Under the pieces are notes generated by a model. The model was not told the DNA's origin. It did not search any database and was given only the letters and a program-made list of their open reading frames with translations. Made by a program: the position numbers and the translations under genes. Shown in pieces: positions 3,771 through 9,317 of a stretch of 9,317 nt of DNA; positions within the stretch are counted from its first letter, which is position 1; every line of letters starts with the position of its first letter. This DNA is from Nitrospinota bacterium (GTDB lineage Bacteria; Nitrospinota; Nitrospinia; UBA9942; JAHJSF01), in NCBI GenBank assembly GCA_018830405.1, contig JAHJSF010000041.1:1-9317 (forward strand). The letters are read 5' to 3'.

Positions 3771-6700
3771 ATGAACAATAGTTCGCCGTCATCCCCAAGA
3801 AACCGCATAGAGCGGACCGATTTTGCCAAGATTAGCTCTATTGTGGACATTCCGGATCTTATAGAGATACAGAAGAGCTCTTACGAACGTTTCCTGCAAA
3901 AGGATGTTAATCGTGAGCGCCGTGATAATGTTGGGCTGCAAGAGGTGTTTAATAATGTGTTCCCTATATACGACTACAATGGATTGTCATTTCTTGAGTT
4001 TATAGGATACGAAATTGGTATATGGTGGTGCGGTTGCGGCGAGTACTCCGGTTGGGGTGGAGATGGGGTTGTCTGCTCTAAGTGCGGCAAAAAGGTGCAG
4101 TACAAGGAGAAGTATACCATAGAGGAATGTGCTGAGAAGGGGATTACTTATGCCGCTCCTTTAAGAATTGTAGTTCAGCTAGTTACCCGTGAGAGAGATA
4201 AAGACGGGGTTGAAAATATAAGGGAGATTAAGGAGCAGAAGGTATATTTGGGTGAAATCCCCCTTATGACCGATACCGGTACGTTTGTAGTCAATGGGAC
4301 GGAACGGGTTGTTGTAAGTCAGCTGCACCGTTCTCCCGGTGTCTTCTTTTTGCATGAAAAGGGGAGTAAGGCCAAGACAGGTAAGGCAATACATGCGGGG
4401 CGCTTGATTCCTTATCGTGGCTCTTGGCTTGATTTTGAGTTTGATTCTAAAGATATTCTTCATGTCAGGATAGATAGACGCCGTAAGCTCAATGTCTCTG
4501 TGTTTTTGAAGGCCCTAGGTTTTACAACCTCAGAATTGCTCAAGAAATTTTATCCTGAGATAGAGATTACCTACGATAAAAAGAACAATGATTTTTTTAT
4601 AGCTTCTTCCAATATCTTTGCAGATATGAAGGCCAAGGATGACATTAATGACCCAGCCAGTGGGGAGGTCATTATTAAGGCCGGTAGAAAGTTTAACAAA
4701 AGGGCGATCAGAAAGCTTGAGAATGCCAAGATAAAGAAGATACCTGTTGAGGTTTCCGATATAGTCAACAGGATTATAGCTTCCGATTTGGTGGATTCAG
4801 ATACCGGAGAAATACTCCTTGAGACCGGACAGAGAATTAGTGAGGAGAATGTTAGTCTCCTGAAGGATAGCGGCGTTAAGACCTTTGCTATCTTTGATAT
4901 TGACGAGAGAGCCGGAGAGGGATGCTTGAGAGAGACCCTCTTGTCTGACAAGTCTTCTTCTAAGGAAGAGGCCTTAAAAGAGATATATAAGAGGATGAGA
5001 CCGGGTGAGCCCCCCACGGAAGAGGCGGCTAGGCTTCTATTCGAGGGGATGTTCTTCAATCCTAAGAGATATGATCTCTCCTCTGTCGGCAGGATGAAGC
5101 TGAATAAGAAGCTCGGTTTGGATATTCCGCTTACTGAAAGATTGCTTACCCCCGAGGATATTCTAAGGTCGGTTAAGTATCTCCTTGACCTTAGAAAGGG
5201 AATCGGTGAGGTTGACGACATAGATCATCTCGGAAACAGGAGGGTCAGATCTGTAGGTGAGTCTATGGAAAACCAGTTCCGCCTCGGTATGGTCAGGATG
5301 GAGCGTGTGATTGTAGAGAGAATGAGCGTTCAAGATATAGACACCTGTATGCCTCAGGATCTTATCAACTCCAAGCCGGTAACTGCTGCCATAAAAGAGT
5401 TTTTTGGGAGCAGCCAGCTTTCACAGTTTATGGACCAGACTAACCCACTTTCTGAGATTACCCATAAGAGGAGACTTAGTGCCCTCGGACCGGGCGGGTT
5501 AACCCGCGAGAGGGCAGGGTTTGAGGTTAGAGACGTACATCCGACTCACTATGGGAGGATATGTCCTATCGAAACACCTGAAGGACCTAATATCGGTTTG
5601 ATCGCCTCTCTCAGCACCTATGCCAGGGTCAATGATTTTGGCTTCATAGAGGTTCCATACAGGAAGGTTAAGGATGGGCTTGTTTCCAAAGAGGTTGTTT
5701 ACCTTTCTGCCATGGACGAGGGGAATGTTGTTATGGCCCCGGCCAATGCCGAGTTGGACTCTAAGGGACACTTTGTTTCTGAAATTATATCTGCCCGAAA
5801 GGGGGGAGATTTTGTCAACGTGGCCCCTGACGAGATAAACTATATGGATGTTTCCCCGAAGCAGCTTGTTAGTGTTGCGGCTTCGTTGATTCCTTTCTTG
5901 GAGCATGATGATGCTAACAGGGCCCTCATGGGGTCTAACATGCAGAGGCAGGCTGTTCCTCTTCTTCATACCGAGGCCCCTATTGTGGGTACAGGGATGG
6001 AGAGTAAGGTCGCCCGAGACTCAGGTGCCTGTATTGTGGCCAAGCATAAGGGAGAGGTTCTGAGTGTAAGTGCCAGACGCGTTATTGTTAGGTATGATTT
6101 GGGCCAGGGGGAGTCGGTCGTTGAGGTTCATCCCTGTATAAAATATGCTAGATCTAACCAGAATACCTGTATAAATCAGATTCCGGTAGTCTTGCCTGGT
6201 GATAAATTTGCCAAGGGGGATGTGCTGGCTGATGGGTCTTCTACAGACAGAGGTGATCTTGCCCTGGGGCGGAATGTTATGGTTGCCTTTATGCCGTGGG
6301 AAGGCTACAACTATGAGGATGCGATAATAATCAGCGAAAAGCTTGTTAAGGATGACTATTATTCCTCCGTTCATATTGAAGAGTTTCAAGTTGAGGCGAG
6401 AGAAACCAAACAGGGAAGGGAAGAGATTACCCGTGATATCCCTAATGTAGGGGAAGATTCTCTTAAGGATATGGATGAGAGCGGAATTATACGTATAGGG
6501 GCCAGAGTTACACACGACGATATACTGGTTGGTAAGGTAACCCCTAAGGTAGAGACACTCCTCTCTCCCGAGGAAAAGCTTCTTAAGGCAATATTCGGTG
6601 AGAAGGCCGGCGAGTGGAGGGATTCGTCTTTACGTGTTCCTCCGGGTGCCGAGGGCATTGTAACTGATGTCCAGATCTTTTCGAGAAAGGGAGCCGACAA

Positions 6701-7802
6701 GGATAAGAGGGCCAAAGAGATAGAGGAGGATAGAATTGTCTCCATAAAAAATGATGTTAATGAGCAGATTCGGTTTATCAAGGATGATGCGGCCGAGCGG
6801 ATAAAAAAGCTTGTTATCGATAAAAACCTATCTAATGAGATAAAGAAAAAAGGGATTAATATCCCCAAAAAGAAGAAGTTAACAGGGGATATCTTGGCTG
6901 GCCTCTCCTATGATGAGCTTGCCTTGGTTAAGGTGCCCGATAAGGATGCCATGTCTCAGATAGATGTTGTTGTTGAGACAGTGGAAACAAGGGTTGCCTT
7001 ACTCAATAATGCCTTGGAGGATAAGAAGGCCCTAATCAAGAAGGGGGATGAGCTTTCTCCTGGGGTTATAAAGTCTGTTAAGGTTTTTGTCGCCATGAAG
7101 AGGAAGATAAAGGTCGGAGATAAAATGGCCGGCCGTCATGGTAATAAAGGTGTGGTTTCCAGGGTTGTTCCCGAGGAAGATATGCCATTTATGGATGATG
7201 GAACGCCGGTTGACATTATATTGAATCCCCTCGGAGTTCCGTCAAGGATGAACGTTGGACAGATACTGGAGACATACCTTGGTTTGGCCGGGAAAAAGCT
7301 CGGCAAGTATTATGCTACCCAGGTATTTGACGGTGCCAAGGAAGAGGAGATAATGGACCTCCTCAGAGAGGCCGGTTATGATGGTTCCGGTAAGGTACAG
7401 CTTTTAGATGGCAAGACAGGTAAGCCGTTTGCCCAGAAGACCGTTGTTGGGCAGATATATATGCTGAAGCTTCATCATCTGGTAGACGATAAGATTCATG
7501 CCAGATCAACCGGTCCCTACTCCCTTATTACCCAGCAGCCGCTTGGAGGTAAGGCCCAGTTTGGAGGACAGAGGCTGGGAGAGATGGAGGTTTGGGCCCT
7601 TGAGGCCTACGGAGCCGGGCATACTCTTCGAGAGATGCTTACGGTTAAATCGGATGATATTGAAGGAAGAAGGCGGATGTATGAGTCTATTGTAAGGGGA
7701 GATGATACCTTACAAGCGGGGATGCCGGAGTCTTTTAATGTTCTCGTTAAGGAAATGCAGAGCCTATGTCTAGATGTAGAGCTTGTTAAGGATAAAAAAT
7801 AA
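3771..7802 (+). CDS. rpoB: DNA-directed RNA polymerase subunit beta
   Basis: The beta subunit forms one pincer of RNA polymerase and much of the active-site cleft. It has 1343 residues. [16 protein letters not shown] (27-42) opens the protrusion. A 30-residue insertion at about 84-113 carries C87, C89, C102 and C105 in a zinc-ribbon pattern not present in E. coli beta. HRSPGVFF (186-193) and [13 protein letters not shown] (213-225) follow, then an SI1-like insert (about 262-382). The rifampicin pocket is at about 546-575 ([17 protein letters not shown], then [13 protein letters not shown]); S551, Q552, D555, H565, R568 and S570 match the sensitive form. An SI2-like insert is at about 971-1060. 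[12 protein letters not shown] has active-site lysines K1118 and K1126. The C-terminal part has [23 protein letters not shown] 3771 has AAGGAG (3754-3759), spacing 11 nt. The gamma-proteobacterial segment of about 50 residues after LETYLG is absent. Confidence 0.99.
4020..4109 (+). other. Zinc-ribbon insertion within RpoB, similar to the RpoC zinc-binding domain
   Basis: Codons 84-113 of rpoB interrupt the protrusion domain between YEIG and KYTIEEC, where E. coli has only a couple of residues. The segment has C87-x-C89-x12-C102-xx-C105. The RpoC zinc-binding domain in this window has C70-x-C72-x12-C85-xx-C88, the same spacing. Aligning beta W85-V109 with beta' W68-V92 gives 13 identities in 25 positions, including W, CxCG, Y and GVVCxKCG. 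At DNA level 4065-4088 and 8153-8176 agree at 20 of 24 bases. Metal binding is inferred from the cysteine pattern. Confidence 0.8.

Positions 7803-7891: not shown

Positions 7892-9317
<1,426 letters not shown>

Follow-up and report, generated by a model that had tools for sequence, protein, structure and literature searches.

A predicted zinc ribbon in the beta protrusion of RNA polymerase of Nitrospinota and Acidobacteriota, probably related to the zinc-binding domain of beta'

The window, i.e., the whole stretch of 9,317 nt that was analysed, comes from a Nitrospinota assembly of 1.42 Mb (87% complete); of its relatives that have a name, the closest is Nitrospinota bacterium NC_groundwater_1752 (L032), of the same order. 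The window contains rpoB and the start of rpoC, preceded by genes which we take, by recognition, to be the end of tuf, rpmG, tRNA-Trp, secE, nusG, rplK, rplA, rplJ and rplL, in this order. The features of interest are as follows.

3771..7802, + strand: rpoB, beta subunit, 1343 aa (open reading frame; Pfam RNA_pol_Rpb2_1 to _7)
4020..4112, + strand: predicted accessory zinc ribbon, RpoB residues 84-114 (gap against solved RpoB chains; invariant length in Nitrospinota)
4029..4031, + strand: codon of C87, predicted zinc ligand (46 of the 56 distinct inserts have this Cys; it is lost jointly with the others)
4035..4037, + strand: codon of C89, predicted zinc ligand (sequence; insert comparison)
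4074..4076, + strand: codon of C102, predicted zinc ligand (sequence; insert comparison)
4083..4085, + strand: codon of C105, predicted zinc ligand (sequence; insert comparison)
4227..4238, + strand: IKEQ, RpoB residues 153-156, conserved beta1 motif (position by alignment)
8111..8185, + strand: N-terminal zinc ribbon of RpoC (beta'), residues 74-98, with C76, C78, C91 and C94, paralogous (sequence; hhalign 97.9%)

We take the IKEQ motif to be the edge contacted by Mfd and CarD, the exact motif being given from general knowledge. In the RpoB tree, the RpoB of the window stood next to those of its order, with a branch as long as 1.61 changes per column. Its residue 86 is W, the residue being E in nearly all other RpoBs.

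The insert lies in the beta1 (protrusion) domain, flanked on its N-terminal side by LEFIGYEIG. In phmmer alignments with solved RpoB chains, residue 83 of the query corresponded to residue 76 of E. coli beta and residue 115 to residue 80, a net excess of 28 residues, and the boundaries of the insert coincided exactly with the break in these alignments. The original prediction of a ribbon-like insert with the CxC-x12-CxxC pattern in the beta protrusion was thereby confirmed. The start predicted for it (residue 84, position 4020) was correct; the end, however, is residue 114 (position 4112) and not residue 113 (4109).

The spacing of C87, C89, C102 and C105 is the same as that of C76, C78, C91 and C94 in RpoC. 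We reproduced the earlier counts of 13 identical residues out of 25 between the two ribbons and of 20 matching bases out of 24 between positions 4065-4088 and 8153-8176. When the cysteines were fixed and the rest of the insert was shuffled, the mean number of identities to RpoC was 6.7, compared to the 13 observed (P = 0.00016); the test on the whole family, given below, is far stronger. For DNA the outcome was different. Over the whole ribbon 43 of 78 bases were equal, compared to 40.7 expected from the codon use of both genes (P = 0.20). The 24-base stretch gave P = 0.03, but this stretch had been picked by eye, after the fact. Since the base identity is what codon use predicts, it adds nothing beyond the protein similarity and gives no evidence for recent copying.

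The distribution of the insert bears on the same question. Among 72 Nitrospinota genomes searched with RpoB, 63 had matches; these produced 56 distinct inserts (L231 included), and in all readable RpoBs every insert was 32 residues long, counting G83. The insert is phylum-wide in Nitrospinota and old, neither local nor recent. The original prediction had offered copying from the adjoining rpoC as one possible origin. For a recent event of this kind in this lineage, by gene conversion or copying, there are the 20 of 24 bases matching over the GVVCxKCG codons. Given the presence of the insert in all relatives and the base identity of the whole ribbon noted above, this scenario is hardly credible; besides, the ribbon of the window, with its 13 of 25 residues, is no nearer to its own RpoC than the ribbons of the relatives are to theirs on average (52%).

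In Acidobacteriota, 191 of 198 genomes had a match, and in about 180 of these the site is occupied by a longer version with two ribbons, a figure that rests on the unbroken alignment length to a double-ribbon query, with about 50 sequences inspected directly. In the double form the first ribbon, CxC-x12-CxxC, is followed by CxxC-x10/11-CxxC. The exceptions were five genomes without the ribbon, two with a Cys-less remnant and some with partial ligand loss (e.g., WKSRSG). Since some Acidobacteriota lack the ribbon entirely, it is not indispensable.

We found no insert in any of the 73 Nitrospirota genomes with a match, in 32 genomes of an Eisenbacteria-type phylum, in 58 genomes of Omnitrophota or in any of the gamma- and alphaproteobacterial loci inspected, and none of the solved RpoB chains was found to have it. 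The further suggestion, made along with the original prediction, that other deltaproteobacterial RpoB proteins have Cys-rich inserts at this site was not supported. In a delta-like phylum, to which a delta-named MAG belongs, about 100 genomes were without the insert; its carriers are Nitrospinota and Acidobacteriota. As sampled, it has the distribution of a clade-restricted beta insertion, which these two phyla have and which is not part of the common bacterial core.

Other variations in RpoB length were seen in the course of this survey. Four Nitrospirota genomes (G286, G295, G311 and G337) have RpoB frames of about 1725-1733 aa, about 400 aa beyond their neighbours, and long RpoB frames (1580-1726 aa) were present in the delta-like phylum as well. 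L009, and most of the Nitrospinota loci that do not belong to families f1 and f2, have a further insert, about 45 residues long, between VLFDRER and VREVKEQK. It directly precedes the IKEQ-type beta1 motif and is absent from the window and its order.

The relatedness of the first insert to the zinc domain of RpoC, raised in the original prediction, was supported by searches, by hhalign and by the identity with cysteines excluded. In a six-frame search of the Nitrospinota genomes with the RpoB N-terminus, RpoC was matched with E about 5e-6 and 53% identity; among the matches listed, RpoC was the only non-RpoB match, and no other ribbon had E below 1e-3. RpoC used as a blastp query found, in turn, the RpoB ribbon (26 aa, 61.5%). 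The best 60 matches of the insert profile to all PDB sequences (hmmsearch) were all beta' or cyanobacterial gamma chains, and beta' or gamma chains ranked first in phmmer against PDB sequences as well. RpoC was thus first in the profile comparison, with no unrelated zinc ribbon family nearer among these 60 matches. In a Pfam scan of the insert, all that came up were generic ribbons below the threshold; Pfam has no separate model for the beta' ribbon. In hhalign, where single-template E-values are uncalibrated, the insert scored 97.9% against RpoC in its Cys form and 79% in its Cys-less form. Apart from the CxC-x12-CxxC pattern, the two ribbons have in common a W two residues before the first Cys, a G after CxC, and GVxCxxC.

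One may suppose that the inserted element was a generic zinc ribbon of other descent and that fold constraints alone made it similar to RpoC. Gains of zinc ribbons come about easily, and Pfam DZR and further generic ribbons are among the matches of the Acidobacteriota double form. The likeness to RpoC, however, survives removal of the cysteines. With the Cys columns excluded, the identity in the Nitrospinota family was 42%, compared to a mean of 11% in position shuffles, and none of 2000 shuffles reached 42%; the Cys-less Nitrospinota forms had 47% identity to RpoC. Taken with the results of the PDB and six-frame searches, this makes convergence distinctly improbable.

The Acidobacteriota ribbon is a weaker case. 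The best full-length match of its first ribbon was beta' (E 0.006), with shorter matches (S27e and others) interleaved, and the identity to RpoC with cysteines excluded, 23%, was above chance but much weaker than in Nitrospinota. Taken as a whole, the double domain is also similar to double zinc ribbons of a generic type. Between themselves the Nitrospinota and Acidobacteriota ribbons scored 97.6% in hhalign; they share the site, and the Acidobacteriota form differs in being basic and in having about 33 additional residues, with a CxxC...CxxC as its second ribbon. In the automatic alignment of the single and double forms, the Nitrospinota CxxC is set against the final CxxC of the latter. The equal CxC-x12-CxxC spacing, on the other hand, favours pairing the Nitrospinota ribbon with the first ribbon of Acidobacteriota.

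We observed that the ligand cysteines of the Nitrospinota insert are lost in concert. All four are present in 46 of the 56 distinct inserts; the remaining 10 have none or C102 only, and no insert has two or three. The cysteines are kept in close relatives of the window, and the losses are confined to more distant genera (g10, g13, g19, g20 and g21, in four families). When the insert was excluded and an RpoB tree was built by a quick method that leaves some forks open, the Cys state changed five times on it, in independent lineages. The change count alone cannot tell loss from gain; loss is indicated by the four-Cys forms on deep branches and by the presence of the four cysteines in the homologue, RpoC. 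In each loss three or four ligands are gone jointly, and the length and the framework are kept. For example, WECxCGEY is replaced by WETSxGEY or WENGEGEY and CxxCG by DxxTG or CxxTG, and the residues W, GE[YF], LGG, GV and KEK are largely retained.

In the same genomes RpoC keeps its four cysteines and L33 keeps its CxxC pairs. One of the RpoCs counted as four-Cys, that of G043, is located on a contig with a chimeric rpoB. On this contig (C14; L227; rpoB N-terminus near 487 kb) the N-terminal half of RpoB is alphaproteobacterial (65% to L053) and the C-terminal half is of Nitrospinota type (69% to L032). Another contig of G043 (C42; L251) ends inside a Nitrospinota rpoB. The mosaic rpoB is most likely an assembly chimera in the MAG.

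The joint loss of ligands with the protein kept (10 of 56 inserts, five changes on the tree) resembles the zinc and non-zinc forms of ribosomal proteins (e.g., PMC3087516). By analogy, the ribbon could store or sense zinc, its loss being a part of general zinc sparing. However, in the zinc/non-zinc pairs a single genome has the two forms, and zinc controls them; in Nitrospinota, among the matches listed, there is one rpoB per genome, apart from the one chimeric contig. General zinc sparing was rejected on account of the cysteines kept in RpoC and in the zinc-form L33, encoded in the same operon, in genomes with a Cys-less RpoB ribbon, and a role in zinc economy or sensing is accordingly very improbable.

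Rather, the joint loss, the conserved length and framework and the intact RpoC and L33 cysteines suggest that zinc is most likely a staple and that the shape of the hairpin is what matters. The predicted metal staple was most likely lost under selection for the hairpin, as judged from the pattern of replacements. The ribbon might also be a passenger, an old functionless insertion tolerated on the surface, as the repeated ligand loss in Nitrospinota and the few Acidobacteriota with no ribbon or with a Cys-less remnant would allow. This is unlikely to a similar degree as convergence, given that the 32-residue length is invariant and that W, L-G-G, G-E and K are near-invariant throughout the phylum, even after the loss of the metal.

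The insert was modelled confidently in its context. The AlphaFold2 model of RpoB residues 1-545 had pLDDT 81 overall and 87-93 at residues 81-120. A fold search with this model aligned it throughout to residues 25-502 of E. coli beta and was uninformative on the insert. An isolated 64-residue piece with the ribbon gave a weak model (pLDDT 71), and the fold search with this weak model returned no significant match (Z 2.7 and 2.1 only) to any fold, the BEAN fold (CATH 3.90.105.10) included.

The beta1-lobe is the domain on which CarD and Mfd dock (PMC5397179; PMC4593161), near the upstream part of the transcription bubble (PMC4593161). The RNA polymerase-interacting domain (RID) of CarD and Mfd binds the same domain in which the ribbon is located, but belongs to separate proteins. 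In 42 Nitrospinota genomes we mostly found one RID carrier with a long Mfd-type frame; G039 has two. The sole CarD-length carrier in these genomes was a 159 aa frame in G001 (contig C99:11801-11971). The idea that the ribbon is a stand-in for CarD was rejected, since CarD-length ORFs are present in Acidobacteriota both with and without the ribbon, so there is no exchange.

The ribbon of beta' contacts RNA (putRNA) at the exit channel (PMC9378689); the RpoB ribbon is in the other subunit, on the protrusion, and is without the basic run of the beta' ribbon. KYKRMKxK of RpoC is replaced by GEYKxLGG in the Nitrospinota RpoB ribbon. The mean net charge is +3.0 for the RpoC ribbon, compared to -2.8 for the Cys forms and -5.7 for the Cys-less forms of the Nitrospinota RpoB ribbon. 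The Nitrospinota RpoB ribbon thus does not offer the basic, RNA-contacting surface of the exit channel: its mean charge is negative, the charge of the window's own ribbon is only +1, and it is located in beta1. A further difference is that the RpoC ribbon keeps its cysteines in the very genomes in which the RpoB ribbon has lost them.

The mostly acidic character of the Nitrospinota ribbon, set against the basic RpoC ribbon, favours contact with protein over contact with nucleic acid. The charges of the window's ribbon and of the Acidobacteriota ribbon (mean +2.4) do not argue for protein contact. Together with the proximity of the beta1-lobe to the upstream part of the bubble and the binding of putRNA by the beta' ribbon, they are consistent with a ribbon in contact with the upstream DNA duplex or, at the upstream fork, with the non-template strand. 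We regard such a contact as unlikely, though less so than a passenger role, and the upstream-DNA contact suggested originally is not favoured, the Nitrospinota ribbon being mostly acidic and the basic run of RpoC being replaced. Charge is the only functional hint; on this sequence-derived property, protein contact or stabilisation of the protrusion would rank first and DNA contact second.

The mechanism that we propose is as follows. The four cysteines C87, C89, C102 and C105 would hold one Zn2+, which would staple a rigid hairpin protruding beside the docking edge of Mfd and CarD, near the upstream end of the bubble. The hairpin would most likely be a lineage-specific element for protein contact or for domain stabilisation. 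The metal may be only a staple, its ligands being jointly replaceable by a metal-free turn; this would explain why the ligands were replaced together in several lineages with the hairpin kept. On balance, we consider it fairly probable that the insert is a structural zinc ribbon homologous to that of beta', gained once long ago, and serving as a zinc-stapled hairpin in protein contact or domain stabilisation.

In the RpoB tree built without the insert, Nitrospinota and Acidobacteriota each formed one group. Their union was not rejected (AU p = 0.59), and the tree with the union outscored that of the free search by 4.9 log units. This result is consistent with a single gain of the ribbon and does not show it. 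The Nitrospina genome paper had Acidobacteria as sister by one tree method and left the position open (PMC3578206). We infer that the ribbon was gained once, before Nitrospinota diversified and probably before their split from Acidobacteriota. Thirty residues are too few to fix the time or the direction of copying. A tentative reading, with a chance somewhat short of even, is that the beta' ribbon was duplicated into the beta protrusion, creating a second metal site that is a shared derived character of Nitrospinota and Acidobacteriota and that became metal-free at least five times.

Lineage-specific insertions of beta (Lane and Darst nomenclature; the BEAN domains, PMC11515920) are alike in being clade-restricted inserts in a conserved core subunit. 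Compared to the BEAN-type insertions, the ribbon is, by sequence, a 32-residue Cys4 hairpin, and it is located in the protrusion. In the survey of beta and beta' insertions from 2024, five sites are given for beta, by domain half, and zinc is not mentioned (PMC11515920). In the accessible text of the E. coli model paper, Acidobacteria are named for inserts i4, i9 and i11 only (PMC2939025). We found no description of the beta ribbon in a literature search that had the Lane and Darst 2010 insertion catalogue outside its reach. Provisionally, the beta ribbon appears to be undescribed.

Structures of bacterial RNA polymerase come from few phyla, and Nitrospinota include major marine nitrite oxidisers. 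Since the extra ribbon is present throughout the phylum on the domain used by Mfd and CarD, the models based on E. coli, Thermus and Mycobacterium may lack a contact made during transcription initiation or repair coupling in Nitrospinota and Acidobacteriota. Being a rare genomic change, the insert is also relevant to whether Nitrospinota are to be placed beside Acidobacteriota. The repeated joint loss of ligands amounts to a natural experiment on the purpose of structural zinc; if our reading is true, one essential protein would show, at least five times over, how a zinc ribbon can become a hairpin without metal.
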